The translations under genes were made by a program, and so were the position numbers. Under the pieces are notes generated by a model, which saw nothing but the letters and a program-made list of their open reading frames with translations, had not been told where the DNA came from and did no database searches. From the NCBI GenBank assembly GCA_031082005.1, contig JAVHLR010000001.1, forward strand, positions 16,870-80,869: a stretch of DNA of 64,000 bases, given 5' to 3'. This document shows, one piece after another, positions 1-61,938 of this stretch. This stretch comes from Patescibacteria group bacterium (GTDB lineage Bacteria > Patescibacteriota > Patescibacteriia > 2-12-FULL-60-25). Each line of letters begins with the position of its first letter. Position 1 is the stretch's first letter.

Positions 1-202
1 ACAGGGGCGGCTTGTGTTGGGACTTGCGAACGGGTCCGTGGGCTTGCGCGGGATCGAACGGAAGGTCGATGACCACGCATTCGAGCGGACCTCCGCAATC
101 GTCCTCTGTGATCTCGATGAGCGCACCGCTGAGCCCGCTGGCAGGAGACAGGGGCGGCTTGTGTTGGGACTTGCGAACGGGTCCGTGGGCTTGCGCGGGA
201 TC
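1..202. repeat. In-frame direct repeat, 55 bp copies at 1-55 and 148-202
   Basis: Bases 1-55 and 148-202 are identical and the period of 147 bp is a multiple of three, so the repeat lies in phase within the partial minus-strand gene. The left copy may extend beyond the window. Perfect identity suggests a recent duplication or ongoing tandem repeat variation. Confidence 0.9.
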
Positions 203-211
203 ATGGGTCAT
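1..211 (-). CDS. Partial repeat protein, N-terminal 70 codons, truncated by window edge
   Basis: The reading frame starts at ATG 211-209, six bases after a strong ribosome site (GGAGGAAG, 222-215), and runs off the left edge of the window. The visible part contains the stretch DPAQAHGPVRKSQHKPP twice, 49 residues apart, because 147 bp are duplicated in frame. Between the copies is an acidic segment (EITEDDCGGP). I do not recognise a family. The next gene upstream on the same strand (314-580) is about 100 bp away, so this could be the end of the same transcription unit as the sigma-like gene. The start is well supported; the function is unknown. Confidence 0.6.
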   Translation of the reverse strand, partial: MTHDPAQAHGPVRKSQHKPPLSPASGLSGALIEITEDDCGGPLECVVIDLPFDPAQAHGPVRKSQHKPPL

Positions 212-313
212 GGTCTTCCTCCATGCGGGTATCCCGCTGGAGGTGCGGGAGTTGAGCGCCTTCGGGGCGACCTCCCGCGAATGTACAAAATGCAATCGGT
301 CGAAGCCAGAGCC

Positions 314-598: not shown

Positions 599-1258
599 CT
601 AGGCGGCGTCGACAGGATCTGCCCGGAGTTGGCGCGCCAAACGCGCCACGAGATCGTGGTGACGCTTCTTGAGAGCATCTCGACTATCGCCGAGGTCTCG
701 AGCGATGTCCTCGTACGGCTCGTCTTCCAAGCGACGAAGGATGAGTTCCTTGTCACGGGGCTTGAGCGCGTGAACGGCTGCCACGAGGCGACGGAGGTTT
801 TCGGCTCGATCGGCTGCTTCGTCAGGCATCCAGCCGGGGTCCGCGACGCCCTCGAGGATATCGGCCTCGGTGGTCGGTTCAAGGGTGACACGGAGTTGCT
901 CTGCACGAGCGGTGGCGAGACGCCATGTCGTGCGTTGCGCAACGCGGAACACGAACCCGGAGACATTGCTTGTCCAGACCTTGCCTTCCTGCACGGCCCG
1001 GAAAAACTGCTCCCACGCTGTTGCGAGGATCTCGGCATAGAGATCAGCGTCCTCCAGCAAGGCTCGACGCACGGCTGTCATGCCGGGAGTCCTGCCCCGC
1101 AATCCCGACGAGCCGTGACCCCCGCCGCTTGCGCCGCTGGGTAGCCCCATCGTCCAGATGACTTGAGTAACCATGAGTCCGATGCGGGCTTGGTTGGCGT
1201 TCCAAAACGACTGCGCTCCCTCTAGCGACAGGAACTGCGGGACGTTCGAGTTCGACAC
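599..1258 (-). CDS. Sigma-70-family (ECF-like) RNA polymerase sigma factor
   Basis: The protein has 219 residues. The start is GTG 1258, behind GGAGGTGAGAGCAA. Residues about 70-120 (alternating helices with a YAEILATAWEQFF core) fit sigma region 2. The C-terminal 60 residues, with LKPRDKELILRRLED and YEDIARDLGDS, fit the region 4 helix-turn-helix that reads the -35 element. A Gly/Ser-rich insert sits near residues 43-58. ECF sigma factors normally direct a small regulon and are held by an anti-sigma factor; no clear anti-sigma is adjacent. Since the ubiquitin-like operon diverges from this gene, it may be a target, which is inference. It could also be a sigma-like DNA-binding protein without polymerase function. 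Confidence 0.75.
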   Translation of the reverse strand: MSNSNVPQFLSLEGAQSFWNANQARIGLMVTQVIWTMGLPSGASGGGHGSSGLRGRTPGMTAVRRALLEDADLYAEILATAWEQFFRAVQEGKVWTSNVSGFVFRVAQRTTWRLATARAEQLRVTLEPTTEADILEGVADPGWMPDEAADRAENLRRLVAAVHALKPRDKELILRRLEDEPYEDIARDLGDSRDALKKRHHDLVARLARQLRADPVDAA

Positions 1259-1646: not shown

Positions 1647-2078
1647 ATGCCAGAGCCGTACTACACGCCACCGTTGGAGGCTGCAATGTACTGCCCCGGC
1701 CAGCGGTCAGCGACCACCACGGTCACGCCGCAGACCGGCCAATCGACTGGCGGCCTCGTAGTAGACGAATCCGCGGCGTTCGCGACCGCGACTGGCGTCG
1801 TCGGGTTCCTCCTCGGGATCCTTGCCGCGTGGCTTTGGCGTTGGATGCACGAGTGGAGGTTCACCGGGTTCGTACCTCTCACCAAGGTTCCTAGGGAGCC
1901 AGTTGCCGCGTTTCTGCCGCGTAGGGTCGCGACTGCAGACCTTCTCGAGGATGACGACGAGAGAGACGACGCTTTCACACCTCTCCGCGAAGATGGGGAG
2001 ACGCCCAAGCGGCGCTCTCCCCCTTGCTGGTTCTGCGGGCTGCCGAAAGACATAGGAAATCACGACCAGTGCTCGTGA
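1647..2078 (+). CDS. Small single-span membrane protein with F-x-P-L motif and Cys/His tail
   Basis: The start is ATG 1647 with GGAGG eight bases upstream, giving 143 residues. One hydrophobic span (FATATGVVGFLLGILAAWLW, about residues 45-65) is followed by basic residues, suggesting an N-out, C-in single-pass protein. The cytosolic part carries DERDDAFTPLRED, matching motifs in the E2-like protein (3870-4580) and in two other small membrane proteins (6205-6657, 13567-13737). The C-terminus has CWFCGLPKDIGNHDQC, a possible zinc site. It lies just upstream of the E1 gene on the same strand, so it may belong to the same operon. A membrane target or anchor for the ubiquitin-like system is my inference. 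Confidence 0.65.
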   Translation: MPEPYYTPPLEAAMYCPGQRSATTTVTPQTGQSTGGLVVDESAAFATATGVVGFLLGILAAWLWRWMHEWRFTGFVPLTKVPREPVAAFLPRRVATADLLEDDDERDDAFTPLREDGETPKRRSPPCWFCGLPKDIGNHDQCS

Positions 2079-2202: not shown

Positions 2203-3510
2203 ATGCAATCGATGAACGGAAGCGACATGTGGAGCCGCGAGAAACTCGCAGGATATGACCCGGAAAAGCTCAGGAACGCGATCTTGGCACTCGATGGCGC
2301 AGGCGCAGCATGTAACAACATCGCATTCAACCTGTGTCTCTCGGGAGTGCGTGAGCTCCGCGTTGTGGATTTCGACACCGTCGAGGTCTCCAACTTGACG
2401 AGGTCATACTTCTTCAAGAAAGAGCGTCTCGCGGAAGGCAAGAAGCGCTACAAGGCGCGTGAGGTCGCCATCGGCGCTTTGACCTTGTCGTACGCCGAAG
2501 ACCCAATCGTTCGCTACGCGGTCGCCCGCGTCGAGGCTCTTGGACTCGGGGCACTTCTAGGCGCAAAGGTCGTTGTCTCCGCAGTTGATTCCTTCGGCTC
2601 ACGAGCGTGGCTCGCGAAGGCGACGCGCCTTCTGCGCATTCCCATGATCGAGGTGGGATTCACTGCATCGCAGGCGCACCTGTCGGTCTACCCCAACAAA
2701 GCCGAGGACGAGCCTTGCTGGCGCTGCGCGCATCCGAACGCAGAACCCGAAGGGATCTCCTGTACGGCATACGCGAGGGCGGTAGTCGAGCAAGGGATGA
2801 GTCCGGCAACCCAGACCGTCGCGGCCACAGTGGGCGCGCTCGCGGCAGAAGCGTGCATCCAAGCGCTGCATGGCGAGTTCCCCTTGGGAGGCAAGCTCCT
2901 CGTCCTCGACATCAGGACGGGCAAGTCCACCACGATCAACCTCACGGCGGATCCCGAATGCGCGAATGGGCATCGGTCGCTTGCACGCATCGACGATCTC
3001 GATGTTTCGGCCGATGAGCCCCTGCGCAGGGTCTTCGAGGTCACGGGGGCGGAGATGTCATCCCCCATCGCGCATCTGCCGTTCCCGTTCGTCATTGAGG
3101 CTCCGTGCGTGAATTGCGGTGCAAGGATACCGATCATGCAGCCCGCGTACGCAGTCCGGGAAGCGCCATGCTGCAAGCAATGCCCCGGCTCGCCGCCCAA
3201 AGCGCCGGCGCCGCTCAACTCCGTGTCGCTCGTCGCAGCGGACAGCCGCCTTGCGACGACGAGGCTGAAGAAGCTCGGACTGGGACCGAGTGCGATCTTC
3301 GACGTGGAGGACGGTGTGAGCGGCGAAATTCGCACCTTCCGCCTCGCGGGGACCACGGACGACATCTACACGACCCTGCGGAGGAAGGAACGCCGCGTCA
3401 GCGATGCCGCTCCCGATGCCTCGTCACCTGCTGATGCCTCAGCGGCCGAGGCAGATGCCGCACTGGACGCGGTGATTGAAGCGGATGAGCACGACCTCCC
3501 GTGCTTCTGA
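2203..3510 (+). CDS. E1-like ubiquitin-activating enzyme (ThiF/MoeB superfamily)
   Basis: An E1/ThiF enzyme would adenylate the C-terminus of a ubiquitin-like protein. With start ATG 2203 (GGAGG site six bases before) it has 435 residues; an earlier ATG at 2098 is possible. The Rossmann loop DGAGAACNN (31-39) departs from the usual GxGxxG by lacking the last Gly. Then come D56 and D58 (VVDFD), and N64/R67 in SNLTRS, all typical of the adenylation site. CWRC (C172, C175) and C187 in GISCTAYA follow, then a conserved-looking helix (TQTVAATVGALAAEA); C187 is a candidate thioester Cys. A second treble-clef-like Cys set (CVNC and CCKQC) sits near residue 305. The tail is acidic. It is followed 80 bp later by the ubiquitin-like gene. 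Confidence 0.88.
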   Translation: MQSMNGSDMWSREKLAGYDPEKLRNAILALDGAGAACNNIAFNLCLSGVRELRVVDFDTVEVSNLTRSYFFKKERLAEGKKRYKAREVAIGALTLSYAEDPIVRYAVARVEALGLGALLGAKVVVSAVDSFGSRAWLAKATRLLRIPMIEVGFTASQAHLSVYPNKAEDEPCWRCAHPNAEPEGISCTAYARAVVEQGMSPATQTVAATVGALAAEACIQALHGEFPLGGKLLVLDIRTGKSTTINLTADPECANGHRSLARIDDLDVSADEPLRRVFEVTGAEMSSPIAHLPFPFVIEAPCVNCGARIPIMQPAYAVREAPCCKQCPGSPPKAPAPLNSVSLVAADSRLATTRLKKLGLGPSAIFDVEDGVSGEIRTFRLAGTTDDIYTTLRRKERRVSDAAPDASSPADASAAEADAALDAVIEADEHDLPCF

Positions 3511-3589
3511 TTCCCGTAACAAGCCCGTAATTCGCGACATGGATGTGAGTGAGACCGACAGAGAGCCGGTCACAAACAGGAGACTGGAT

Positions 3590-3859
3590 ATGGCAACCAA
3601 CGGAAACAACATCGAAGTCGAATTTGCACATCCCCACAAGAGCAACTTGTTCAAGGCCGGAATCGGCAAGGGCACCACCGGAGCCCAGGCCATCGAGAAC
3701 CTCGTATCGCAGGGATTCCTCGAGAAGCCCGCGAGGAAGGACCAGTACCTCCTTACGGTTCAGTCGACGAACACCAACATTCCGCCCTCGCACGCGATCG
3801 CAGACTACGCCAAAGACGGCGACGTGATCGCCATCGTCTCTCCGGGCATCGGCGCATAG
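3590..3859 (+). CDS. Ubiquitin-like beta-grasp protein
   Basis: This 89-residue protein starts at ATG 3590 with AGGAG eight bases upstream. It lies between E1-like and E2-like genes, ten bases before the latter, which is the usual place for the modifier. The pattern of short strands (IEVEFAH, YLLTVQST, DVIAIVSPG) with one central helix (GAQAIENLVSQ) fits a beta-grasp fold. The C-terminus is PGIGA: one penultimate Gly followed by Ala, not Gly-Gly. If the Gly is the conjugated residue, the terminal Ala would have to be removed, and the adjacent JAMM protease could do this (inference). It might instead act without conjugation, for example as a sulfur carrier. Confidence 0.75.
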   Translation: MATNGNNIEVEFAHPHKSNLFKAGIGKGTTGAQAIENLVSQGFLEKPARKDQYLLTVQSTNTNIPPSHAIADYAKDGDVIAIVSPGIGA

Positions 3860-3869
3860 GGACTCCGCC

Positions 3870-4580
3870 ATGCAGCCTGCCACCCGCAACTTGCTCCGTA
3901 GCCGGCTCGCCCTAGATTACCAGGTAGCGAGTCGGCTGCGGGCTCCGGCCCTCAAGTCCGTCAGAGCTTTCGCTTCCGCGGAGCAGGTTCCGCGTAGGCG
4001 CGAAGTAACACCCGAGGAGGGCGAACGCGGGTTCGCGACCGTCTACCTCGTCGAATACGGCTTCCGCATGCTCAAGGGCCCCGGCGAATACGTGGATGGG
4101 GCCGTCGTGAGATTCGACCTCTTGGCCCATGGGGGATACCCGCGGACCGAGCCCAGGGTGCAGGTCGTGTCGCAGCCCTTGCCCTGGAGCCCGCACGTCG
4201 CACAGCCCGCTGGCGTGTTCTGCATCGGAGAGATCTGGAAGGAGAGACAGGGGCATATGCTCCTGGGCGGTCTCATCATCCATACGATGCGCGTTCTGAA
4301 TTGCGACGAGAAGGACCGCGGCGGGGGCTACGTTGGATACAGCCCTGCAGCGATCGGCTACTGGCGCGAGGTACTGAAGCGCCAACCCGTGAACCCGGAC
4401 CTCGAATACCCGCTCCTGCCGCCTGACGTGGCTTACGGCATCGAGGACCCGAACTCGGCTTTCGTGCCCATCGGAGGCGGCTTCGAGGCGCGCGGCACCG
4501 CCGGGCCGGGCAATGAGAGCGGTTTCGTGTGCCTCACACCGGAGGCAGCTGACAACGGCTTCACGCCCATCGGAGGGTGA
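3870..4580 (+). CDS. E2-like ubiquitin-conjugating protein with motif-bearing tail
   Basis: The 236-residue protein has the E2 layout: N-terminal helix, meander strands, YPRTEP (90-95, equivalent to the YPxxPP turn), SPHV before the active site, and GVFCIGE with Cys118 as the candidate thioester residue. Then come a helix (GGLIIHTMRVLN) and a YWREVL helix like the C-terminal E2 helices. The last 55 residues are not E2 fold. They carry NSAFVPIGGG and DNGFTPIGG, plus a related ESGFVCL, matching motifs in three small membrane proteins of this element. Stop and next start are within 5 bp of the JAMM gene. E2 activity is inferred from fold and neighbours. Confidence 0.82.
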   Translation: MQPATRNLLRSRLALDYQVASRLRAPALKSVRAFASAEQVPRRREVTPEEGERGFATVYLVEYGFRMLKGPGEYVDGAVVRFDLLAHGGYPRTEPRVQVVSQPLPWSPHVAQPAGVFCIGEIWKERQGHMLLGGLIIHTMRVLNCDEKDRGGGYVGYSPAAIGYWREVLKRQPVNPDLEYPLLPPDVAYGIEDPNSAFVPIGGGFEARGTAGPGNESGFVCLTPEAADNGFTPIGG

Positions 4581-4582
4581 AG

Positions 4583-5524
4583 ATGAACAACTCGATCCAG
4601 AGGGTACGCGACAACCAGGACTACTCGTTCGTCGCGCTCGGCGTCCGAGAACCGAAGGTACACGAGATCGACCGACGTGAGGCGCGGTCACAGGTCAGGG
4701 TGTTCCGCTCCCGAGACGGCTTCGAGGCTGCCTTCCGGGAAACCGTGGTGGAGCGGTGCCGCGAGTTTGCGCGCAACGCCGCGCCGAACGAGTGGTACGG
4801 CGTCCTTCTGGGCAGGCAATGCAAGGACGACGGGGGCAGGCATGTGGTCGTCGAAGGGATCGTTCCTGACCCGGATTGCCTGGCCGGCCCCGGATACTTC
4901 GAAACCACACCCGAGTCCGAACTGCGCACACGGATGACGTCCGACGCGCTCTTCCCGGACTGTGTGCTCTTGGGCTGGGTGCACTCCCATCCACACGGGA
5001 ACGCCCGGTTCTCGAGCGTGGATCGGCAGAACCAGACGCAGTGGACGGCACCTGACAGCCTCGGTGCCGTGATCGAGCCCTACGGAGACGGGGACGTGAG
5101 CGTGTACCGCGGGCCGCAAGCGGAACCACTCGAGGAGGTCGAAGACACGGTCGTGGATCTTGCGGCGCCTGCAGCCGATGCGACTCCATCGCCCGCGTTT
5201 CCTCCGATCCGGGCACGGACGGTTCACGAGACTGCCTCCGGCGATCCTGCGAGCATGGGGCTCGCCGCCCAGATGGGTGCAGCCTTGCTCGGAATCGTGT
5301 GCATCGTGGCGGTGCTCTCCGGCGTTTTGGCCCTCCGCCGAACAGCCACACTATCGTCGCGTGTGCTCGAGCTCGAGGCCGAAGTCGGGAGACAGTCGGA
5401 GCCGTTCGTGTCAACGATCCACGTGGTCGGGCCGTCGGAACACCTGGATCCGGTCGGTCGCGTGTGCGTCGACAACCCGCCAGCGGTCCCCGAGACACTG
5501 GTCTGCGAGTCGACGATAAAGTAG
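4583..5524 (+). CDS. JAMM/MPN metalloprotease with C-terminal membrane anchor (deubiquitinase-like)
   Basis: The start is ATG 4583, six bases after GGAGG. A GTG at 4577 overlapping the E2 stop is an alternative. The JAMM zinc site is complete: E70 before YGVLLG, H134-S-H136-P, Ser 144/145 and D147, with exactly ten residues between the second His and the Asp. Members of this family cleave ubiquitin-like conjugates or mature the modifier. After the catalytic domain, residues about 230-255 form one membrane span (AALLGIVCIVAVLSGVLAL). A short coiled coil (LELEAEVGRQ) and a 45-residue tail follow. A C-terminal membrane anchor puts deconjugation at the membrane, in line with the small membrane proteins nearby. 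AFPPI near residue 210 resembles the shared motif. Confidence 0.87.
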   Translation: MNNSIQRVRDNQDYSFVALGVREPKVHEIDRREARSQVRVFRSRDGFEAAFRETVVERCREFARNAAPNEWYGVLLGRQCKDDGGRHVVVEGIVPDPDCLAGPGYFETTPESELRTRMTSDALFPDCVLLGWVHSHPHGNARFSSVDRQNQTQWTAPDSLGAVIEPYGDGDVSVYRGPQAEPLEEVEDTVVDLAAPAADATPSPAFPPIRARTVHETASGDPASMGLAAQMGAALLGIVCIVAVLSGVLALRRTATLSSRVLELEAEVGRQSEPFVSTIHVVGPSEHLDPVGRVCVDNPPAVPETLVCESTIK

Positions 5525-5557: not shown

Positions 5558-5971
5558 TCACCAGCTGGCAAGAAACTCGGCTTCGGCGGCAGGGTCAAGC
5601 GTGCGGGGCGACTGATCGAAGCGGCCGTTCGGCCACTCTGCCCGCCACACGGGCAGCAGCTTGTCGAGCCGGAGGCCGGGATCCTTCGCATGCGCATCCT
5701 CGAAGAGGTACACGCACTGCGCGTCCGGCCGACCCTGCGGATCGTCGTTCGGCTGCTTCCAGTCCGTCTGGAGCTTTGCGTGAGCGACGATGCGTCCCTT
5801 GAAGTGGAAGACGACAAGCGTTCCTGCCGACGTGTCGCGTGCGATGTAGTTGTCGCGACCGTAGACGTAGAACTTGCCAGGCGGGTTCCTGCGCGGCAGC
5901 TCTTCGAGGAAGAACTCCGCGACGCCGAATCCGTCGAGGACCTTCTCGTTCAGGGGCATGGATTTCGCCAT
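5558..5971 (-). CDS. Hypothetical protein, possible PUA/EVE-like beta barrel
   Basis: A 137-residue frame starts at ATG 5971 and lies opposite in strand to the ubiquitin-like operon, converging with it (34 bp between stops). The core (FYVYGRDNYIARDTSAGTLV, then FHFKGRIVAHAKL) resembles the pattern of PUA, ASCH and EVE-type small barrels, where a turn precedes 'vvf..g.iva.A'. This likeness is by eye only. No ribosome site is obvious at this start; the frame stays open upstream to 6121. Function unknown. Confidence 0.5.
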   Translation of the reverse strand: MAKSMPLNEKVLDGFGVAEFFLEELPRRNPPGKFYVYGRDNYIARDTSAGTLVVFHFKGRIVAHAKLQTDWKQPNDDPQGRPDAQCVYLFEDAHAKDPGLRLDKLLPVWRAEWPNGRFDQSPRTLDPAAEAEFLASW

Positions 5972-6204
5972 TGCGAGAGACGATAGCCGAGGTGCGGTAG
6001 CCGGATCAATCCGAAGGTTCGGTTTCTCGACAGAGCTCCTGACACCGTCGGATACCCCAGGGCTGGACCGCTCGACGGCGAGCGGCGTGTAACGCGAAGG
6101 CGTCAGTCGACATGGAGACATCGTGCGAAGTCGGGTCGCTACTCCAAACCGGTGAAGCTCGGTCGAAGCGTGGCCTCAACAGTTGCGGACAGAAGGAGGA
6201 ACAA

Positions 6205-6657
6205 ATGGAACTCATCACATTGGCAATCGGAGCAGCGATTCTTGTCGGCCTTGGGGCGTTCTTCGTGAAGCACCTCGGCTGGCCCCGGGACATCGCCGGC
6301 ATGGTCAAGTGGGGACTCGTACTCGTGCTCTCGGCGGTCCTTTTCGTAGGGATCCCAGATCTCATCCGGCAGTTCCCGACGGGCGCAATTCCAGCGGTCA
6401 ACGTCGGCGCGGTAGTCTTCGCGCTCGCCTTCCTTGCCCTCGCGGCCATCGGCTACTGGGGCTGGGCGAACGAGGTGGGGAAGCGCGAGAAGCGGCGGCT
6501 ATTCGAAGACCGCGCGCGGTCGCTGCCCCGCCGACGCCTGCCGCCGCCAGCACCGCGAACAGCACCGATTCACGCACACGATGAGCAAGGGTTCCATCTG
6601 CAAGACGACCAGGCGTTCACCCCGCTCGGCGGCGAGAACGGCAACGGTGTGGAGTAG
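6205..6657 (+). CDS. Three-span membrane protein with C-terminal F-x-P-L-G-G motif
   Basis: The start is ATG 6205 behind AAGGAGG, giving 150 residues. Three hydrophobic spans are visible: LITLAIGAAILVGLGAFFV, WGLVLVLSAVLFVGIP and NVGAVVFALAFLALAAIGYW. A basic, proline-rich linker and an acidic tail containing LQDDQAFTPLGGEN follow. That tail repeats the motif of the E2-like protein (DNGFTPIGG) and of two other membrane proteins here. It sits 10 bp upstream of the TraG/HerA-type ATPase gene, so it may act with that ATPase at the membrane. No named family recognised. Confidence 0.7.
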   Translation: MELITLAIGAAILVGLGAFFVKHLGWPRDIAGMVKWGLVLVLSAVLFVGIPDLIRQFPTGAIPAVNVGAVVFALAFLALAAIGYWGWANEVGKREKRRLFEDRARSLPRRRLPPPAPRTAPIHAHDEQGFHLQDDQAFTPLGGENGNGVE

Positions 6658-6667
6658 GAGGTAAGCC

Positions 6668-8332
6668 GTGGGGAATTGGGCAGGATTCTTCCGCGGCGCG
6701 TTCCGCGGCGATGACGGCAAGGCAGCCTTCGTCCGCGAGCGAGAGACGGTCCGAACCGCGACTGTGCGGTCGCCCCTGGACGACCGGTTCCGCGCCGACA
6801 TGCGGAAGCTCACAGTCCAGGATGAAGGCGTGCTGGTGGGAAGGGCCCACGCCGACCCGGGCGTCGAAGTTCGAATCCCCTGGCGCGACGTGGTCGGAAG
6901 CGGCCACGCGTTGGTGCTCGGTGCCAGCGGCGCGGGCAAGACCAGGGCTGTCGGCGGCATCGTGCGCACAATCCTCTCGCGTACTGCGGCGGATTCAGCG
7001 CCATGCAACCTCGTGATTCTTGACCACAAGTCCGAATTCGTTGACTTGGCTCGCCGCCTCCTCGCAGAGGTGCTCGACGATGTTCCGAGAACGCAGGCGC
7101 GCGCCCTGCTCGATCGGCTTGTCATCGTGAACCCATTCTCCGCGACCGCTCTCGTTCCGATGCAGATTCTCAAGGCGGAACCCGGTGTCCCACCGGAGGT
7201 TCAGGCGTTCGAGGTCGCGTCCGTCGTGAACCGGCTAGGCGGAGCGGAACTGGGGGTGCGGCAAGACACGTACCTCTTCCATCTCCTGCTCCTTGCGATC
7301 ACGAAGGGGATGTCGCTTCCCGAGGTTGCGAGGCTCTTGTCCGACGGGGAGGAGCTCAAGGCCGCCGCCGCAGATTGCCCTTCCGCCGAAGCCCGTGAGT
7401 TCTTTTCCGGCAAGGCAATGAAGGACCGATTGAATGCTGGCTCGCTCGAGGGCGTGCGTGCACGCCTCCACCGGCTGCTCCGGCTCCCTTCGACCCGCGC
7501 CATGCTTGGAGGCAAGACGTCAGTCTCGTTCCGCGAGCTGTTGCGCGATAGGATAGTGTTCATCGACCTCGGATCCCCGCCCTTGGGCTGCGAGGACATC
7601 GGACGGTTTTGGTCGGGGCTCGTCACGCTGAAGCTCACGCGAGCGATCTTCGAGCGGAGGCCCGAGGATTCCAAACACCCAGTCGCCCTGCTTGTCGACG
7701 AGTGGCAGGAGGGACTTGCCTCGGGCGGCGACATCGCGGACCACTACGAGCGGGTGCTCTCTATGGCACGCTCAAGGGGCGTGTCGTTCTGGTTGGTGAG
7801 CCAGTCGCTCGCGGGTGCAGCCAAGGTCTCCGCTTCGCTCCCCAAGATCGTGGCGACCAACACCAACGTCCAGCTCCTATTCCGATGTTCGCCCGAGGAT
7901 GCGCGGGGACTTTCACATGTCTTGCCCGTAACCGGCCGGCGACTGCGCGAGCAACCATCCCCGTGGGAGCGCGCGCAAGGATCGCCATTTCTGACCAGGC
8001 CGGAGGAACTACAGCTTCTCGTGAACGAAGCAAGCTCGCTCCCTGACCGCGTGTTCTACCTCTGGAACAGGAAGCGACCGTATCCGGCCGAACTCGTGCG
8101 CGCTTCTGACGTGAACGTAGGAGCATCTCTCCCCCGCAACTCCGCGGTCCGTCGAAGGCTCCAAGACGGCACGCTCGCCGTGCCGATTGGCCTGCTGGAA
8201 GCGCAAGTCCGCGGAGACTTCGACTTCCGGCGATTGCCCGCGAATGCGATGGAGACCACGGGTGCAGAGCCCGGCTGGGAAGGCCAGGGGAACGCCGGCT
8301 TCCCTACCCGGAAGCCGAAGCCTCTCAAGTAG
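6668..8332 (+). CDS. TraG/TraD/HerA-type membrane-associated P-loop ATPase
   Basis: The 554-residue protein starts at GTG 6668 after AGGAGGT. Walker A (GASGAGKT) is at about residues 86-93, followed by NLVILDHKSEF, typical of HerA/FtsK and conjugative coupling proteins. Walker B (VALLVDEWQEG) is near residue 340. A sensor-like segment (SFWLVSQSLAGAAK) and a late arginine-rich region complete the fold. Such ATPases pump DNA or couple it to a secretion channel. There is no membrane span in the protein itself; the three-span protein just upstream could provide it. A second member of the superfamily is at 56282-57400, also beside a replication-relaxation protein. Confidence 0.78.
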   Translation: MGNWAGFFRGAFRGDDGKAAFVRERETVRTATVRSPLDDRFRADMRKLTVQDEGVLVGRAHADPGVEVRIPWRDVVGSGHALVLGASGAGKTRAVGGIVRTILSRTAADSAPCNLVILDHKSEFVDLARRLLAEVLDDVPRTQARALLDRLVIVNPFSATALVPMQILKAEPGVPPEVQAFEVASVVNRLGGAELGVRQDTYLFHLLLLAITKGMSLPEVARLLSDGEELKAAAADCPSAEAREFFSGKAMKDRLNAGSLEGVRARLHRLLRLPSTRAMLGGKTSVSFRELLRDRIVFIDLGSPPLGCEDIGRFWSGLVTLKLTRAIFERRPEDSKHPVALLVDEWQEGLASGGDIADHYERVLSMARSRGVSFWLVSQSLAGAAKVSASLPKIVATNTNVQLLFRCSPEDARGLSHVLPVTGRRLREQPSPWERAQGSPFLTRPEELQLLVNEASSLPDRVFYLWNRKRPYPAELVRASDVNVGASLPRNSAVRRRLQDGTLAVPIGLLEAQVRGDFDFRRLPANAMETTGAEPGWEGQGNAGFPTRKPKPLK

Positions 8333-9653: not shown

Positions 9654-10486
9654 CGGCTCCGATCGAAGAACGAGGCGCGATGAAGTGCCCGGATGCGGCC
9701 CGGTGCAAACCGCGGGAGCGGGTGTGCTCTGTCGTCGGACGACCGCGAGACTTGGACGTCCTCGAGTCGCTCGCGTGGGCCGGCATCCTCACGACCTCCC
9801 AGGTTGCGCGCTTACATTTCCCCTCGCGCCGCACGGCGGAGCGCCGGCTGCGGGCACTGCTCGATCATGGGCTCGTCCGGAGCTGCCTGCAGAACGAACA
9901 CCTCCATCGCGACAGCGTGCACCTCTTGACTCCGCGCGGGGCGGAGCATCTCGCCGAGGAGCGTAAACTCAATCAGAAGACCGTGCGACCCGGGCGTGTC
10001 CCCCGTCCGCAGAAGCTCCGGCACGCGCTTGCAGTCCGCGATGTGTTCGTAGAGTTCGTGCTCGCTGGAAGGATGGGCGCGTTCGAGCTTCAGGACTTCG
10101 CGTTCGACGACGACCTCGCGCGCCTCCCCGCGTTCAAGGAACGCCACATCGTTCCGGATGGGCTTTCGCTCGTCCGCGCGGGAGGACGAGCGCTTGCAAT
10201 CACAATCGAAGTCGATCTCGGGAGCGAAACGACGACCACGCTTCGCAAGAAGTTCGAGAACCATCGCGCGATCAAGACGGTTCCGGTTGCCGGCGTGGAC
10301 ACCGGAGTGCGGCTACTGGTCGTCGTGGAACGGCCGGCTCGAATGAAAACCGTGCGACGACTGCTCGAAGAGGAACAGGTTGGAGCTTGGACAGCGCTCA
10401 GCGCCGAGTTGGAACAACACCTCGGCATGCTGCTTGGACTCCAGCCCGACCTTGGCGACCCTCACGCTTTCTTGCCTCTGATCTGA
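9650..10486 (+). CDS. Replication-relaxation family protein
   Basis: The protein has 278 residues with ATG 9650 overlapping the preceding stop. A winged-helix domain at about residues 35-95 (VLESLAWAGILTTSQVARLHF, ERRLRALLDHGLV, LTPRGAEHLAEE) is followed by a nuclease-like core: HALAVRDVFVEF, then PDGLSLVRAGGRALAITIEVDLGSE and FENHRAIK. This is the layout of the replication-relaxation family found on plasmids and integrative elements, where it is linked with plasmid replication or nicking. A second family member, also next to a coupling-type ATPase, is at 57394-58551. Confidence 0.72.
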   Translation: MTAPIEERGAMKCPDAARCKPRERVCSVVGRPRDLDVLESLAWAGILTTSQVARLHFPSRRTAERRLRALLDHGLVRSCLQNEHLHRDSVHLLTPRGAEHLAEERKLNQKTVRPGRVPRPQKLRHALAVRDVFVEFVLAGRMGAFELQDFAFDDDLARLPAFKERHIVPDGLSLVRAGGRALAITIEVDLGSETTTTLRKKFENHRAIKTVPVAGVDTGVRLLVVVERPARMKTVRRLLEEEQVGAWTALSAELEQHLGMLLGLQPDLGDPHAFLPLI

Positions 10487-22181: not shown

Positions 22182-23183
22182 CTAGTCGCTGCTCCGCTTC
22201 GCCTCGAATGCGTCGCGAACCGCTGCGTACGTGTTGCTGGCTGGTTGGTCCTTTGCGTTGCGGAGCGATTCGACGTAGTCAGCCATGAGGCTGAAGAGCT
22301 TTGCGCATCCGGCTCTGTCCGCGACATCCCCTATCAGATTGCTGGAACTGTCATAGGGATCGGCGATCACCCCGCTCTGGATCGCCCGAGCAAGGTGACG
22401 AAACGCATACACAACTTCAAGGGAAACCGACTTCGTCCAACTCGTTGCTCGTCCGTAGTCGACTATCGCCGTCTCGATGGCAAACGAAGGCAGCTTGATG
22501 CCGTATGTGTCGCGGACGCGCTTCGCGATGCGGATGACGTTCCGAAAGTCCGCCTTTCCATCGGCGACGCGATTCAGTATCTCGATATCCCCACGCGGGG
22601 ATGTCAACGTCCAACCATCGGCCGCGTTGCCCTTCGGGATGTTGTAGAAAACGGTGCCATTGTTCGCGTGCTCGAAGACCCCAGCTGGCACGAGGTCGAT
22701 TGCAAGGTCTCTCGACGCAATCCGCGCAGTGATTGCCTGGCCATCGCGGATAGGTGCCTCGCCCCCGAACGAGTCCACAATCCTAGCAACGACAAGCCTA
22801 AGCCACTCGAGCATCTTCGCCGGGCTCACGCCTGAACCGTCGGGCTTGAAGAAGCGTTCGTCGTACTTGTGATTCGGGAATTCCGATCCTTGGCCCGAAC
22901 CCAAGGTCCTTCCTCCCGAGTGGAAGTAACCAGTATTGGAGTCGATCACCACTAGGATATCGAACTCATCCACGTCCCGTACCTTTGTGCCCTTGAAGTA
23001 GCTGCCAAAACGGATGAAACGTTCAGTCGGGTAGAGCTGAGGCCCAGCCGATGTCGACACAATCTCGTTCTCGAGACGGGTCAGAAACCACTCCCGGCTC
23101 GCGGCACATGCACTGATGTCCTTCGCACCAAGCGCGATGTCCGTTTCGATATACTTGTGGATGGCTGCATCGACGTCTGCCAT
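22182..23183 (-). CDS. cGAS/Mab21-like nucleotidyltransferase
   Basis: The 333-residue protein starts at ATG 23183, just after the stop of the S-4TM gene (an earlier start at 23228 would overlap it). The active-site pattern is GSYFKGTKVRDVDEFDIL: Gly-Ser then Glu-Phe-Asp, as in cGAS and Mab21-type enzymes, with a third Asp in LAIDLVPAGVF. A C-terminal helical domain follows (IRIAKRVRDTYGIKLPSFAIE). Enzymes of this group make cyclic or linear oligonucleotide signals. It is the third gene of a minus-strand unit with another NTase and a four-span effector. Confidence 0.8.
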   Translation of the reverse strand: MADVDAAIHKYIETDIALGAKDISACAASREWFLTRLENEIVSTSAGPQLYPTERFIRFGSYFKGTKVRDVDEFDILVVIDSNTGYFHSGGRTLGSGQGSEFPNHKYDERFFKPDGSGVSPAKMLEWLRLVVARIVDSFGGEAPIRDGQAITARIASRDLAIDLVPAGVFEHANNGTVFYNIPKGNAADGWTLTSPRGDIEILNRVADGKADFRNVIRIAKRVRDTYGIKLPSFAIETAIVDYGRATSWTKSVSLEVVYAFRHLARAIQSGVIADPYDSSSNLIGDVADRAGCAKLFSLMADYVESLRNAKDQPASNTYAAVRDAFEAKRSSD

Positions 23184-23187
23184 ATGA

Positions 23188-24027
23188 TCACTTGCTCGAC
23201 TCGCCATGGCTCTGGCGGTAGTCATCATTCAGTTCTTGCATGTTGCTGGCGTGTAGCCAGCGAGGAAGTGGAGGCGACTGGACATGAGCAGAGTCGTACT
23301 CGATTAGGAGCGGTAGAACGTCCGCCAACTCAAGTCCCTCGAGCCCACGGATGCGAGTGGCACCGTCGTACGCTTGTCGAGCGGCCTGTTGGAGGCGCGC
23401 GAATCGCCAGAGAAGTAGGGCATAGTCACCGGAAACCAAAAACGCTGCCACGATAGCGATGCCGCGTGCAATTGGCGGGAGCACGCCGGGTGCGACGCTC
23501 ACGGTGCTGGCGAGGTACACGGCTGCCACAAGGGCTCCGACGATAGCGATTCCACCCCACGCAAGAAATCTCACGAGCTTCTCAGCAAGATGTTCCGTGA
23601 AGTACGCGCTCTCAGCTAGATTGTCCGCTAGTCGGCTGGCGCCCTGGGGGAATTTCGACGTGTAGTACGGCGACACGTAGGGCGCTGGCGCAAGGGCGTC
23701 GCCAGCGACCCACCGGCGAACCTGCGCTTGCTCGGCGGCAGGAATCGTTCGACCAAGACTGTCCGAGAGTAGGATGAGGTGACGGATCTTGTCGGCGCGG
23801 CCCGTGGGGATGGCGGCAGCCTCCCTAAGCACAGCCGATACACCTGGCGCGAGAAATGCGACCATTGCGGCGCCCAAGCCAACGCCGGATCGCTCCGCGC
23901 AGGTTATCGCCACGAGCGCGGCGACGAGAGCGGTGGCGTTTGCGACCACACTCACGGTCCAGAGGCGCCCAGCATTCGCGTACAACGCATCCTTGAGGTC
24001 GTGAAAGTCTTTTTGCTTTTGCGACAT
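23188..24027 (-). CDS. S-4TM-type four-span membrane effector
   Basis: The 279-residue protein starts at ATG 24027. Four membrane spans appear in two pairs: about residues 25-45 and 50-70, then 155-175 and 185-210. A cytosolic middle region has RRWVAGDALAP and YVSPYYTSK, and the C-terminus is charged. This is the S-4TM layout known from CBASS loci, where the membrane protein is the presumed killing effector triggered by a nucleotide signal. It lies between two NTase genes, 5 bp from one and 46 bp from the other. Confidence 0.75.
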   Translation of the reverse strand: MSQKQKDFHDLKDALYANAGRLWTVSVVANATALVAALVAITCAERSGVGLGAAMVAFLAPGVSAVLREAAAIPTGRADKIRHLILLSDSLGRTIPAAEQAQVRRWVAGDALAPAPYVSPYYTSKFPQGASRLADNLAESAYFTEHLAEKLVRFLAWGGIAIVGALVAAVYLASTVSVAPGVLPPIARGIAIVAAFLVSGDYALLLWRFARLQQAARQAYDGATRIRGLEGLELADVLPLLIEYDSAHVQSPPLPRWLHASNMQELNDDYRQSHGESSK

Positions 24028-24073
24028 GCTCGCACCATACTGTAACAATGTTCAGCTGTCCAGGGAGTCCGAG

Positions 24074-24961
24074 TCAAGGGAACCGGCCGTTGAACACGAG
24101 ACCCCAAAGCCGCAAAGCCTCACCGATGTTGCCGAACGATTCGCAGCGGACTGCCTCCTGGGCGCGTCCCGCGGACGCGCCCACCGCGGCGACCAGTCGG
24201 TCAACCTTGGAGTTCGTGGCTGCTGCCGAGATGTTCCCGGAGATGCTGCACGGATCTTGGAGCGCGCGAGCAGACCTCTGCTGGACGAGAGATAGCGCGT
24301 CCGCCACGCACTGAGCAAGGGTTCGGCCTCCGTTGCACGTGCCATGTTTCGCGAGAAGGAGTTCGAGATGGAACGCATTGAGCGGCAGCTGTGGCACTCG
24401 ACAAAACTTCCAGTACTTGAGAATGCGAACAACTGACTTCAGTTTTCCACCAGCTCTTTCGTTCCCTTCGGCGATATACTTGTTGTGGAGCTCCGGCGAG
24501 GTTGCGAGCCAGTGATCGACGTCGCTCGGGATGCGGTACAGAGGCCAGCCGCTTTCGAGCGCATCATCAAAGCGGGCTGGGACGACGTCGACCTCTCGTC
24601 CATCTGAGAACTTGATCACAACCGCTTGGCCGTCGCGTCCGATAAAACTCTGCGGGAACGTTCCCTGGAGCGCAGTGCGCAGGCGAGTGAGGATCGTGTT
24701 GGGGAGCACCAGGCGACCGCCCCAGTCCGTTTCTCGACGGCGAAGCACAACGAAGAGGTCGAGATCGCTGAAGAGACGAATTGCGGACCCGCGTGCGTAG
24801 CTTCCGACGCAAACGACTTTTGAGAGATTGAAGCTACTGCGGAGCGAGCTCTCTATCCGTGCGCGGTGAGTCTCGAACGCAGAGATGTCCGGTTCCGCGA
24901 GTGTGACGCCGGCCAATATGCCCGCGAAGGACTCGGCCACAGGCGATCTCGAGACGGCCAC
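24074..24961 (-). CDS. CD-NTase (SMODS-type nucleotidyltransferase)
   Basis: The 295-residue protein starts at GTG 24961 with an AGGTAA-type site upstream. Near residue 54 is GSYARGSAIRLFSDLDLFVV, the Gly-Ser...Asp-x-Asp signature of the SMODS/OAS-like CD-NTases, with a third acidic strand REVDVVPARF near residue 123. A helical C-terminal domain (VVRILKYWKFC, FHLELLLAKHG) matches the family. It would make a cyclic oligonucleotide on phage infection. It heads the unit CD-NTase, S-4TM, cGAS-like NTase, beside an XRE regulator. Confidence 0.82.
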   Translation of the reverse strand: MAVSRSPVAESFAGILAGVTLAEPDISAFETHRARIESSLRSSFNLSKVVCVGSYARGSAIRLFSDLDLFVVLRRRETDWGGRLVLPNTILTRLRTALQGTFPQSFIGRDGQAVVIKFSDGREVDVVPARFDDALESGWPLYRIPSDVDHWLATSPELHNKYIAEGNERAGGKLKSVVRILKYWKFCRVPQLPLNAFHLELLLAKHGTCNGGRTLAQCVADALSLVQQRSARALQDPCSISGNISAAATNSKVDRLVAAVGASAGRAQEAVRCESFGNIGEALRLWGLVFNGRFP

Positions 24962-25666: not shown

Positions 25667-25867
25667 GTGACAAGTGACGAGATCCTCACACTAAAGGAGG
25701 TCGCCAAGCTCCTGAAGGTTGCCGAGAAGACCGTGTACACCATGGCCCAGAACAAGGAACTCCCGGCGTTCAAGGTCCGCGGGCAGTGGCGGTTCCGCCG
25801 CGAGGACATGGACCGGTGGATCGAGGAGCAGAAGGCTCAGGCCGCCGAGGAGGGCTCGGATGAGTAA
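25667..25867 (+). CDS. Helix-turn-helix protein, first gene of the MADS-like operon
   Basis: The start is GTG 25667, with GGGAG upstream, giving 66 residues. It is almost entirely an excisionase/MerR-like helix-turn-helix: ILTLKEVAKLLKVAEKTVYT, a wing with FKVRGQWRFRREDMDRW, and a charged tail. It overlaps the first methyltransferase gene by 8 bp. As the first gene of a seven-gene overlapping operon it is probably a regulator. A gene of this kind heads the methylation-associated defence system (MADS) as I recall it. Confidence 0.75.
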   Translation: MTSDEILTLKEVAKLLKVAEKTVYTMAQNKELPAFKVRGQWRFRREDMDRWIEEQKAQAAEEGSDE

Positions 25868-29974: not shown

Positions 29975-31395
29975 AAGAGAAACTCGTCCCCAGCGCGTGG
30001 CTGGAGAAGGAAGGTCGGCGCCTTGACTGCGGACCATATGTGTCTGGAGCCATCGAGGCACGGGTTCTCCTCGGACAACTCCCAGTGAAGAAGACCCCGC
30101 TTCAGGCCCTTACAGCAGGCCACGACGGCGGCATCTACAACGGACCACAATTCGTGCGCAGGTACGTTGATGGCGAGCAGCATGGTGTTCGGTTTCTCAC
30201 GAGTAGTTCGATGCTCCTTGCCGATCTCAGACTCGCCGATCTGCTAAAAAGAAGCGACGCACATTCCTCGCGACTCGCCCATCTGCGTCTGTCGCCATCA
30301 ATGATCCTAATTTCCTGTTCGGGAACTATCGGTCGCATGTCGTTTGCGCGTGCCGACATGGACGGCATGTGGTCGTCGCAGGACATCCTCAAGATCGTCG
30401 CGGCACCGAAGCGGGTGAAACCGGGGTTCCTGTACGCGTATCTGTCCAGCCGTTTCGGCGTGCCGCTCGTAACGGGTGGCACGTACGGTGCGATCATTCA
30501 GCACCTGGAGCCACAACACATTGCAGACCTCCCAGTCCCCGAAGCCCCCGCTGATATCCAAGACAAGGCTCACGCGCTTGTCGTGAGGGCGGCCGACGCG
30601 AGGACGACTGCAATCGGCCTAATCATTGCCGCCGAGAAGCGCGTAGCTGAAGCATGGGGCCTTGGGCCTCAATCGGCCGATCCAGCGCGCAAGGCAGGAG
30701 GTCCAGACATACTTCTCACTCAGGCGTCAGCGCTCGCGGGTCGGTTCGACGCTCACTTCCATTCCAGCCCTGCCCGTGCGGCAGATGAAGCGCTGGGACG
30801 TCTCGCGCACAGCATTGAGGTGAAGCGACTAGGAGATGTCGTTGAGTCCGTCTTCGAGACGCCTCGCTTTGGACGGATTCCTGTTGAGGACCCCAAATAC
30901 GGCGTACCGTTCATGTCGATTTCGGACCTTGCCCGAATCGATCCGATTCCATCTGGTCTCATCAGCAAACGGCAAGCGGTAGCGATGAAAGCCATCGTTG
31001 AGGACGGGTGGCTCATTCTTCCTCGCGTCGGTCAGCTACAGGGATTGTTTGGGCATGTGGTTGCGGTTCCCCCGCATCTCAGAGGACTCGGGGTGAGCGA
31101 CAACAACATCCGGGTGGTTCCGCGGTCAAAGCCCGACAGCGGATACCTATTCGCTGCGCTGTCGACGAAGATTAGCTACTGGCAGATCGTGCGACGGGCT
31201 TGCGGAACTTCGATCCCGTATCTTGATGCCGCCAGAGTTTCCGATGTCCCCGTGCCATGGGTGGGCAGTGACGAACGAGCCAAGATCGGCGCCTTGGTGA
31301 ATGAAGCGATGGCTCTTCGTTCGCGTGCGCGCCATGACGAGCGCGAAGCTGTCGTCCTGGTAGAGCGCTGGATCGAAGGGATGGGAGGTGCCTGA
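29971..31395 (+). CDS. hsdS: HsdS-like DNA specificity subunit
   Basis: The 474-residue protein starts at ATG 29971 with a 4-bp overlap. It has two target-recognition-like halves: SCSGTIGRMSFARADMDG...SSQDILKIVA and later DGWLILPRVGQLQGLFGHVV...VSDNNIRVVP. Each ends with a conserved-region-like helix segment (PAPADIQDKAHALV-like at about 190; ERAKIGALVNEAMAL near the C-terminus). HsdS subunits choose the bipartite target sequence of type I enzymes. No HsdR with a helicase is present, so cleavage would depend on other proteins of this operon. Confidence 0.8.
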   Translation: MKEKLVPSAWLEKEGRRLDCGPYVSGAIEARVLLGQLPVKKTPLQALTAGHDGGIYNGPQFVRRYVDGEQHGVRFLTSSSMLLADLRLADLLKRSDAHSSRLAHLRLSPSMILISCSGTIGRMSFARADMDGMWSSQDILKIVAAPKRVKPGFLYAYLSSRFGVPLVTGGTYGAIIQHLEPQHIADLPVPEAPADIQDKAHALVVRAADARTTAIGLIIAAEKRVAEAWGLGPQSADPARKAGGPDILLTQASALAGRFDAHFHSSPARAADEALGRLAHSIEVKRLGDVVESVFETPRFGRIPVEDPKYGVPFMSISDLARIDPIPSGLISKRQAVAMKAIVEDGWLILPRVGQLQGLFGHVVAVPPHLRGLGVSDNNIRVVPRSKPDSGYLFAALSTKISYWQIVRRACGTSIPYLDAARVSDVPVPWVGSDERAKIGALVNEAMALRSRARHDEREAVVLVERWIEGMGGA

Positions 31396-44316: not shown

Positions 44317-44386
44317 GGGAATGATGCTCGACATTCCGTCTCCAAGGAATGGGGGGCTGATGGCATGAGCCCATCGGAGCAGGGGC

Positions 44387-51129: not shown

Positions 51130-51169
51130 CAGACCCGGTCCGATGGCTCGGGATGACTGGAGCAAGAGG

Positions 51170-60396: not shown

Positions 60397-60666
60397 ATGA
60401 CCGAACCAACAACAACGCAGTTGAGGGAGAACGAGAACCACGCAACCTTCGCGCTTCCTTCCGACCTCATCACGGCAGCCGAGGTGGCCACCAGGCTCGG
60501 CGTCGCGAAGAGTGCAGTGTACGAGTGGATCGCGCGACGGGACATCGCCTACCACCGCGTGGGCCGTCTCATCCGCATCCGCGAAACTGACGTCGCCGCG
60601 TTTTTGAATCGTAACCGCGTGGAGTACAATCCGCGCCGCCGCCATGTCCGCTATCCGGAGGCGTGA
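60397..60666 (+). CDS. Excisionase-type helix-turn-helix protein (module 2)
   Basis: The 89-residue protein starts at ATG 60397. The helix-turn-helix (LITAAEVATRLGVAKSAVYE) and wing (HRVGRLIRIRETDVAAFL) match module 1 at 19379-19678. Its end overlaps the integrase start by 23 bp. It should steer the integrase toward excision. Confidence 0.82.
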   Translation: MTEPTTTQLRENENHATFALPSDLITAAEVATRLGVAKSAVYEWIARRDIAYHRVGRLIRIRETDVAAFLNRNRVEYNPRRRHVRYPEA

Positions 60667-61729
60667 TCGCGCCGATGAATGGTGGGTCGACTTCCGGTTC
60701 CAGGGCCAGCGCATCCGCAAGCGTTCCCCCGTACAGACCAGACGCGGCGCCGAGCAGTACGAACGATGCCTGCGGAACGACTTCGTCGCCGACGTCGAGG
60801 CCGGGCGCGATCCCTTCGCTGGGCCGCCGCCGACCCTCGCGGAATTCGCGGAGCTGTGGATGCGCGAGTACTCAACACCGCGGAACCGAGAAACGACCGT
60901 GGTCGCCAAGAGGTACTTGCTCGACCAGCACATCCTGCGGCATGTAGGACAGCGGCGCATCGACGTGATCGACTCGCAAACCGTCGATGATCTTGTTGCT
61001 GCGCTTCGACGGTCAGGCCTCGCTCCCAAGAGCATCAACAATGCCCTATCTGTCCTGCACACCTGTCTGCGCTCTGCGGCCCGCTGGCATGTGATTCGTC
61101 ACGTACCCGAGTTCCAGTGGGCGCGCGTGCCTGAGCCCCGATTCCGGTATCTGAGCAAGGACGAGGAGCGAGCGCTGATCGGCGCCTGCCGGCCAGGCTT
61201 CTGGCGGGCCCTCATTGTCCTGCTGCTGCAGACCGGCTTGCGTTTCAGCGAGGCCGCGGCGCTTGAATGGAGCGACATCGATCATGGGCGAGCGACGCCA
61301 ACCATCAGGGTGTGCAAAGGCGGATCGCGGGGCAAGCCCGGTCCGACGAAGACGGGCTCGCATCGTGAGGTTCCGCTCAGCCCGGCGGTCTCCTCCGAAC
61401 TCGCCACGCTGGCGCGAACAGGTGACCTCATCTTCCCGACTCCAAAGGGCCGCATGATGGACCCGGCGGTGACGGGTAACTACCTTCACAGAATCTGCGC
61501 CCGCGCGGGAATCGCCCCGTGCGGTTGGCACGTGCTTCGTCACACCTTCGCAACCAGGATGGCTAGCGCCAACATCCCACTGCCAGTGCTGCAAAAGCTC
61601 CTCGGGCATACCACGCTGAAGATGACCATGCGCTACGTCCACGTCGACAAGGCCAGTATGTCAGCTGCCGTGGAGACTATCGAACAAGTTTTCGAGTCGC
61701 CGCGCAACGCCCGACGAGAGTCGGCTTGA
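60644..61729 (+). CDS. Tyrosine recombinase / integrase (module 2), adjacent to tRNA-His
   Basis: The 361-residue protein starts at ATG 60644. The arm-type N-terminus (EWWVDFRFQGQRIRKRSPVQ) resembles module 1 (RIRKVAPVQTKRDAE against RIRKRSPVQTRRGAE). Catalytic residues are complete: LLQTGLRFSEAAAL, HVLRHTFATRMA, LLGHTTLKMTMRYVHV. The stop lies 135 bp from the 3' end of tRNA-His, the usual position of an integrase relative to its target. This is the integrase most likely to have placed the element here. Confidence 0.9.
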   Translation: MSAIRRRDRADEWWVDFRFQGQRIRKRSPVQTRRGAEQYERCLRNDFVADVEAGRDPFAGPPPTLAEFAELWMREYSTPRNRETTVVAKRYLLDQHILRHVGQRRIDVIDSQTVDDLVAALRRSGLAPKSINNALSVLHTCLRSAARWHVIRHVPEFQWARVPEPRFRYLSKDEERALIGACRPGFWRALIVLLLQTGLRFSEAAALEWSDIDHGRATPTIRVCKGGSRGKPGPTKTGSHREVPLSPAVSSELATLARTGDLIFPTPKGRMMDPAVTGNYLHRICARAGIAPCGWHVLRHTFATRMASANIPLPVLQKLLGHTTLKMTMRYVHVDKASMSAAVETIEQVFESPRNARRESA

Positions 61730-61863: not shown

Positions 61864-61938
61864 TGGGGTGGCCAACGGGGGTCGAACCCGTGATAGCAGA
61901 GCCACAATCTGCTGTGATACCGCTTCACCATGGCCACC
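61864..61938 (-). tRNA. tRNA-His (GTG)
   Basis: Cloverleaf on the minus strand: acceptor GTGGCCA / TGGCCAC with the extra G at -1 opposite C73, anticodon stem GCAGA / TCTGC with loop TTGTGGC (anticodon GTG), T stem ACGGG / CCCGT with TTCGACC. The 3' CCA is encoded (61866-61864). The G-1:C73 pair is specific to tRNA-His. Confidence 0.96.

Follow-up and report, generated by a model that had tools for sequence, protein, structure and literature searches.

A recurring tail tag is shared by the E2 and two membrane proteins of a ubiquitin-like conjugation operon on a patescibacterial integrative element

The stretch analysed here, called the window throughout, comprises 64,000 nucleotides of a Patescibacteria group bacterium (GCA_031082005.1, contig JAVHLR010000001.1, positions 16,870 to 80,869 of the forward strand), and at 2203-5524 it carries genes for an E1-like adenylating enzyme, a ubiquitin-like protein (Ubl), an E2-like conjugating enzyme and a JAMM protease. 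Such a core gene set already has relatives; the new point is the sharing of a tail tag, F(T/V)P(L/I) with or without a following GG, between the E2 and two small membrane proteins of the operon, TM1 and TM2 (Table 1). This is the most unusual feature of the operon and it was missed in the first-pass annotation, which had been made from the letters of the DNA. Our reading, to which we give about even chances, is that of a membrane-centred Ubl conjugation pathway on an integrative element, its partners being chosen by a short linear docking tag common to E2, TM1 and TM2. The recurrence of tags in related clusters suggests a docking code that may so far be undescribed, and a literature search by title or abstract found no paper on the tail tag.

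Tail tags in the operon and in related clusters

Within the window, F[TV]P[LI] occurs seven times in open reading frames (ORFs) of at least 60 residues (90,729 residues in all), five times in TM1, E2 and TM2 and twice elsewhere, against 0.012 expected from the rest (Poisson 2e-12), while no more than two copies arose in any of 20,000 shuffles of the three proteins; both figures overstate the case because the motif was picked after inspection. Among 627 ORFs the best match to the E2 tail is TM2, with a score of 32, the next unrelated ORF reaching 24. The five copies differ in their codons at synonymous positions and are thus kept as protein. Five sites of the FxPxGG type are found in the whole host genome, three of them in the operon. 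The other two (FxP[LI]GG) lie inside longer, enzyme-like ORFs (PP-loop-like and flavin adenine dinucleotide-enzyme-like by eye) and not in tails, and were taken as chance. Of the core proteins, E1 and Ubl alone have no tail tag: the Ubl has no match and those of the E1 fall inside its folded part.

Table 1. Positions in the window of the tags, the core genes, their neighbours and the integration site
Feature	Position	Strand	Basis
Tag FVPL in TM1 (EWRFTGFVPLTK)	1869..1880	+	motif reading
Tag FTPL in TM1 (DERDDAFTPLRED)	1974..1985	+	motif reading
Tag FVPIGG in E2 tail	4461..4478	+	motif reading
Tag FTPIGG, last residues of E2	4560..4577	+	motif reading
Tag FTPLGG in TM2 tail (LQDDQAFTPLGGENG)	6616..6633	+	motif reading
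TM1, 143 residues, one predicted transmembrane helix (about residue 43)	1647..2078	+	ribosome-binding-site-like GGAGG upstream of ATG 1647
E1-like adenylating enzyme, ThiF domain and C-terminal Zn ribbon, catalytic C187	2203..3510	+	Pfam match, alignment
Single Ubl, C-terminus ...SPGIGA	3590..3859	+	profile alignment, AlphaFold model
E2-like conjugating enzyme, Cys118, long C-terminal tail	3870..4580	+	profile alignment; homologue folds as E2
JAMM/MPN+ protease, C-terminal transmembrane segment near residue 235	4577..5524	+	Pfam match, alignment
TM2, 150 residues, three predicted transmembrane helices	6205..6657	+	ORF, transmembrane prediction
HerA/TraG-like coupling-type P-loop ATPase	6668..8332	+	PF01935 2.8e-6, PADLOC mad8 4e-12
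Replication-relaxation family protein	9680..10486	+	PF13814 3.1e-23
Tyrosine integrase beside attachment site and tRNA-His	60644..61729	+	ORF read as integrase from sequence
27-bp direct repeat, 3' end of tRNA-His (attachment site)	61864..61890	.	other copy at G000:C3:4348-4374, outside the window

Related clusters carry a tag of their own, [LIVM]xWx[D/E], at E2 C-termini, at the N-termini of JAMM and J-domain proteins and in the tails of coupling ATPases. On plasmid pCRI9333.03 of Crinalium epipsammum it reads LNWR at the E2 C-terminus and LQWRD at the JAMM N-terminus, with three copies in the ATPase tail and two in each of the next two proteins. Eleven of the 17 matches to [LIVM]xW[RKQH] on this plasmid fall in five adjacent genes of the cluster region (one being MTWQ at the ATPase start) and 6 elsewhere. 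The coupling ATPases of six cyanobacterial clusters hold 2-5 tag copies each, all in the C-terminal part. Proteobacterial and other clusters have the motif at the start of the JAMM (MKWNEL, MQWTDL) and of the J-domain protein (MKWRNI, MRWKEL) and at the end of the E2 (IVWSTI, IVWRDF). Counted over 27 clusters, [ILVMA]xW is present in 21 E2 tails and 21 JAMM N-termini, for which shuffles give an expectation of 5.7 and 8.4, respectively, and Asp or Glu follows at the second position after Trp in 31 of the 42 tags. GG is absent from the relatives' tags, many of which end in WR, NDV or REL.

The E2 tail and the JAMM N-terminus also resemble each other more within a cluster than in permuted pairs (best 5- and 6-residue similarity, p 5e-5, 27 clusters). 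The excess persists when the cyanobacterial TraG clade is left out (p 7.5e-4 and 5e-5), and within-cluster matching reaches p 5e-5 in the 16 clusters fetched after the idea had been formed, seven of which are also in the 27-cluster test. A version of the test with the tags aligned on Trp, which a conserved family motif could not pass by itself, has p 6e-5 for all clusters and 7e-4 with one taken per close group. Shared descent makes the clusters in these tests non-independent, and with 20,000 permutations p cannot fall below 5e-5. At the level of sequence comparison, then, the recurrence of the motif across related clusters is firm; tag matching specific to each cluster is clear when cyanobacteria are in the set and no more than suggestive outside it.

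Core gene set and its relatives

The four genes lie in a row on one strand, as the first-pass annotation had it. Of the gaps that it gave as 80, 10 and 2 bp, the one between Ubl and E2 is indeed 10 bp, that between E1 and Ubl is 79-80 bp, and the E2-JAMM gap is 2 bp only if the JAMM starts at ATG 4583; GTG 4577, overlapping the E2, is a possible start as well. The key residues named for E1, E2 and JAMM are invariant in alignments of related clusters. The E1 matches ThiF (PF00899, E 2.5e-25 in a Pfam search), with one such domain in 435 residues; its D56, D58, E61, N64, R67 and C187 are invariant among 22 E1s from related clusters, and the Cys pairs of its C-terminal Zn ribbon align with theirs. 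Its branch in the E1 tree is very long (4.53 changes per site) and its position there is therefore unsure. The JAMM is a Prok-JAB match (E 7.4e-12 in a Pfam search) with E70, H134, H136 and D147 (ATG numbering; 72, 136, 138 and 149 from GTG) invariant across related clusters, the JAMM alignment of which has invariant Glu, HxH, Ser and Asp.

The Ubl and the E2 have no Pfam match when searched alone. Against a profile of 29 related-cluster Ubls, the window Ubl (89 residues) gives P 2.6e-5 over 75 columns (hhalign). Its AlphaFold model (predicted local distance difference test, pLDDT, 81.4) has one domain in the ubiquitin order b-b-a-b-b-(a)-b and its best PDB matches are Caldiarchaeum ubiquitin, FAT10, SUMO and ubiquitin (TM-score about 0.7-0.77). 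The Ubl is thus a predicted single-domain beta-grasp protein, one of two folds on which the first-pass annotation had staked its reading. Its C-terminus is ...PGIGA; an Ala end is also found in two relatives, and C-terminal Ala is tolerated as donor residue in the cyclic-oligonucleotide-based anti-phage signalling system, CBASS (PMC10097602). The other fold is that of the E2, which aligns with the related-cluster E2 profile at P 6.9e-7 (hhalign), C118 falling on the invariant catalytic Cys; this profile-profile match supports a UQ_con-type E2 fold, as does the fold predicted for a homologue. In place of the eukaryotic H-P-N the window E2 carries S-P-H, which is neither the HPN found in most relatives nor the HPH found in some (others have NPN or NPH). 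HPN/HPH belongs to the E2 active site and does not define the cluster family. By these alignments 2203-5524 is an E1/Ubl/E2/JAMM conjugation-deconjugation set with all its catalytic residues; the claim of a full set, made from the first reading, is borne out for all four functions by Pfam, profile alignment and the Ubl model.

A DNA pattern for the E1 stretch DxDx[VI]E[VIL]xNLTRS was run over 84,980 species, each represented by a single genome. At least 117 loci carry the pattern and, among the matches listed, more than 20 hold E1, E2 and JAMM together, most of the other listed loci being E1-only, many in Prevotella and its relatives. Clusters of E1, Ubl, E2 and JAMM with canonical E2s, many of them with Ubls of the YukD type, are present in Cyanobacteria, Planctomycetota, Armatimonadota, Chloroflexota, Pseudomonadota and others. 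An E1 search matched Crinalium pCRI9333.03, which has the syntenic arrangement E1-Ubl-Ubl-E2-MPN-VirD4-like ATPase, and the order E1-Ubl-E2-JAMM followed by a coupling-type ATPase is also seen in other cyanobacteria. The earlier statement that order and surroundings match nothing known therefore does not hold, with the caveat that the window and Crinalium coupling ATPases have no detectable homology beyond the generic P-loop. Searched against plasmids, phages and viral contigs, the E1, E2 and Ubl of the window returned almost nothing, the only full-length relative being the Crinalium E1.

UQ_con (PF00179) is matched by 23 of the 24 E2s in the related-cluster alignment, and the profile built from these finds eukaryotic E2 structures at 3e-17; of 24 related-cluster Ubls, 13 match YukD (PF08817) and 4 match ubiquitin (PF00240). 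The E2 profile has matches in 13 of 292 cyanobacterial-phylum and 33 of 294 planctomycete-phylum genomes, counts of E2 matches that were not all checked for a whole cluster and that include some with Cys-rich RING-like extensions. Long extensions of this kind in planctomycete E2s (L173, L175-L178, L181) may be E2-E3 fusions. Bacterial systems of this sort with RING-like partners have already been described, and for this reason only a variant is claimed for the window set. Three other planctomycete E2 tails (L180, L184, L187) hold acid-flanked hydrophobic repeats, DDVLIID, EDILIIE and DDLLIIE, that resemble SUMO-interacting motifs. A natural Ubl-E2 fusion is encoded in two planctomycete metagenome-assembled genomes (L119:2301-3239, L101:301-1239), its Ubl ending in ...VAG ahead of the E2, so that JAMM cleavage would be needed to free it; AlphaFold gives the L119 fusion a Ubl and an E2 domain, both mostly at pLDDT >90, and closest to Rad6/UBE2A. 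The window set has the E1, single-domain Ubl, E2 Cys and JAMM features of the canonical-E2 family but not HPN/HPH, and in sequence terms it is a very divergent member of these clusters.

Integrative element and neighbouring genes

The operon rides on an element of about 74 kb integrated in tRNA-His, as the perfect 27-bp attachment repeat and the adjacent integrase confirm, and it had rightly been placed on a mobile element before. The repeat copies bound about 74.4 kb (C3:4348-78759), and G+C in the window falls from 0.59-0.67 over the first 62 kb to 0.50 in the rest. A very small genome thus has a full Ubl pathway on its mobile DNA: the host genome measures 1.31 Mb and related ones 0.7-1.6 Mb. 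Ribosomal protein L30 was not found in the host by a search that finds it in 13 of 14 controls. These traits are in line with Patescibacteria. In 193 host-related genomes, an insensitive single-protein search found the window E2 only in the host itself.

An opposite-strand gene at 5558-6121, for which there is no Pfam match, interrupts the plus-strand operon between JAMM and TM2. Upstream of the operon, a direct repeat at window 1-260 and L004 16700-17170 (LVLGLANGSVGLRGI when translated) surrounds a masked stretch, and a sigma-factor-like gene (599-1258, minus strand) adjoins it. Further into the element, PADLOC identified a CBASS-like set on the minus strand at 22182-24961, with two CD-NTase-like cyclases and a four-transmembrane (4TM) effector-like protein, and at 25860-37201 a set like the methylation-associated defence system (MADS), with two mad2-like methylases, mad5, mad6 (kinase/PglW-like) and mad7. 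The 1831-residue protein at 37198-42693 reads like a HerA-type ATPase in its C-terminal part, and the genes at 43060-47170, for a nucleosidase-like protein with a PADLOC effector match and then a STAND NTPase-like protein with TPR-like repeats, are probably another defence pair.

Near its left end the element holds an integrase-type transposase (586 residues) and an AAA ATPase (G000:C3:4859-8190), Tn5053/Tn7-like by eye. Lipoproteins with a near-identical start (GCGSSDxDPxGGxxGGSDGG) are encoded both inside the element (51143-52300) and left of the attachment repeat near the contig end (G000:C3:607-1740), so that a single insertion may be too simple an account of the left boundary.

Proposed pathway, rival readings and known systems

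The standard relay of these families comprises adenylation and thioester formation by the E1, transfer to the E2, conjugation and removal by the JAMM. Judged by the conserved residues and by what is established for the families, the window E1 (C187) would adenylate the Ubl C-terminus and hand the Ubl to C118 of the E2; the charged E2 would put it on proteins and the membrane-anchored JAMM would take it off. The tag F(T/V)P(L/I)(GG) on the E2 tail, TM1 and TM2 would choose the substrate or partner, all copies being bound by one common reader, for which Ubl or E1 are the best candidates since they alone among the core proteins have no tail tag. In this way the tag would bring charged E2 to the membrane apparatus of the element, including the coupling-type ATPase, and related clusters would follow the same plan with [LIVM]xWx[D/E]. 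The pathway is probably membrane-centred, because the JAMM has a C-terminal transmembrane segment and the tagged partners are membrane proteins. Its likely output would be defence or membrane-level control of an element function (transfer of DNA, or exclusion).

By analogy with SUMO-interacting motifs (SIM) and LC3-interacting regions (LIR), the tag may be a cluster-specific docking motif that brings the cascade to its membrane partners. A wider proposal, which we hold tentatively and a little short of even chances, is that bacterial Ubl systems have a cluster-specific tag code: one motif, varying by cluster, on the E2, often on the JAMM, and on clients or effectors (J-domain proteins, coupling ATPases and small membrane proteins). 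The reader in each cluster would be its own Ubl or E1. Most bacterial Ubl pathways lack known substrates and partners, and a shared tag would name likely ones directly from sequence.

Several observations weigh against a docking tag that leads to the membrane apparatus. The window coupling ATPase carries no clear tag and has no detectable relation to the cyanobacterial one, and the opposite-strand gene parts TM2 from the core set. The N-terminus of the window JAMM (DYSFVALG) was considered as a further copy; 23% of all window ORF N-termini are at least as close to the E2 tail, so that in the window the E2 shares the tag with membrane proteins alone. The window motif (F..L/I with P) is only loosely like that of the relatives; among these, within-cluster matching has p 0.08-0.15 in the planctomycete-type subset alone, and the Trp-aligned test p 0.058 once the whole TraG clade is removed. 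Finally, in the single-chain AlphaFold model of the L119 fusion the tail is modelled at low confidence (pLDDT about 45) and is not docked.

The lack of docking in that model could also be expected if the recurring tails were duplicated or convergent low-complexity disordered sequence with no binding role, and so could their position outside folded domains; the choice of the motif after inspection favours this too. We nevertheless find it improbable, because shuffles and background ORFs fall short of the observed counts, the tag copies differ at synonymous sites, and the arrangement recurs with other sequences in independent clusters, those fetched later among them. We think it just as improbable that the tags are processing or donor sites, with FTPIGG at the E2 end and FTPLGG|ENGNGVE in TM2 mimicking a Ubl C-terminus, cut by the JAMM after GG or activated by the E1 as CBASS cGAS C-termini are. 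Three of the five tags do end in GG, one being the exact E2 C-terminus, and CBASS Cap2 conjugates a non-Ubl protein via its C-terminal G or A (PMC10097602), but the two TM1 tags have no GG, one E2 copy is internal, and without GG in the relatives' tags the general plan cannot be a GG donor.

A plain anti-phage operon of the Bil/Bub type, with the Ubl put on virion or host proteins in the course of infection and the tail repeats as minor lineage-specific docking features of no wider role, would be a less surprising outcome, although we still hold it unlikely. The element also carries the CBASS-like cyclases with their 4TM effector and the MADS-like methylation/kinase set, and Bil, like the E1/E2/JAB systems of CBASS, acts against phages (PMC10097602, PMC11354881). 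The operon, however, lies beside the replication-relaxation and coupling-ATPase genes and outside the defence block at 22-47 kb, its closest-ordered relative is on a plasmid beside a conjugation-type ATPase, and the features that define Bil are absent.

Those features are two beta-grasp domains in BilA, an E1 with an inactive and an active adenylation domain, and the CEHH arrangement of BilB (C, +6 E, +8 H, +13 H) (PMC11354881). The window set resembles BilABCD in having Ubl, E1, E2 and JAMM in one operon (PMC11354881), yet its one Ubl domain, its one ThiF domain and the spacing after C118 (+6 K, +8 R) rule out membership. With CBASS Cap2/Cap3 it shares E1, E2 and JAB chemistry and the C-terminal Ala allowed at the donor; Cap2, in contrast, fuses E1 and E2 and conjugates cGAS with no Ubl involved (PMC10097602), and the separate E1 and E2, the presence of a Ubl and a distance of about 17 kb to the cyclases exclude the window set from that type.

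Bacterial E1/E2/JAB/Ubl operons were predicted by Iyer et al. 2006 (rows 6a-6e; PMC1779556), and the four functions in one neighbourhood are common to these and the window. In 6a-6c the E2 is fused to the E1, whereas the window has four separate genes; the 6d E2 has no upstream conserved His but a downstream one, whereas the relatives of the window E2 carry HPN; and 6e has a polyUbl, an inactive E2-like domain and a JAB-E1 fusion (PMC1779556), which a single Ubl, an E2 with Cys118 and a separate JAMM rule out for the window. Crinalium pCRI9333.03 is alike in gene order, in the downstream coupling-type ATPase, in the C-terminal Zn ribbon of an E1 with 28% identity, in the C-terminal transmembrane-like segment of the JAMM and in a recurring tail tag in the E2 and a membrane protein. 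It differs in the tag itself (LxWRD against F(T/V)P(L/I)), which there is also on the JAMM and the ATPase, and in having two Ubl genes.

For the tags themselves the nearest comparison is with SIM and LIR/AIM (Atg8-interacting motif). For these, direct Ubl binding, which works by strand addition, has been demonstrated, whereas for the bacterial tags it is inferred and the sequences fit no one consensus. FTPI, FVPI, FTPL and FVPL of the window fit the core [W/F/Y]xx[L/I/V], most of them preceded by acidic residues; in the relatives the third position after Trp is hydrophobic in only about half of the tags, and a strict LIR consensus was rejected for them. The likeness lies in short motifs, hydrophobic or aromatic and often flanked by acidic residues, that the enzymes and effectors of a single Ubl system carry (PMC12687455, PMC7615515): LIRs for Atg8 are found on the E2 Atg3 and the protease Atg4B (PMC7615515), and SIMs on SENPs and SAE2 (PMC12687455). 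Were a tag peptide to bind the Ubl or E1 of its own cluster, eukaryotes would cease to be the only known case in which short linear motifs read a Ubl; bacteria would then have their counterpart of the SIM and LIR/AIM motifs, and clients of such systems could be found by sequence.

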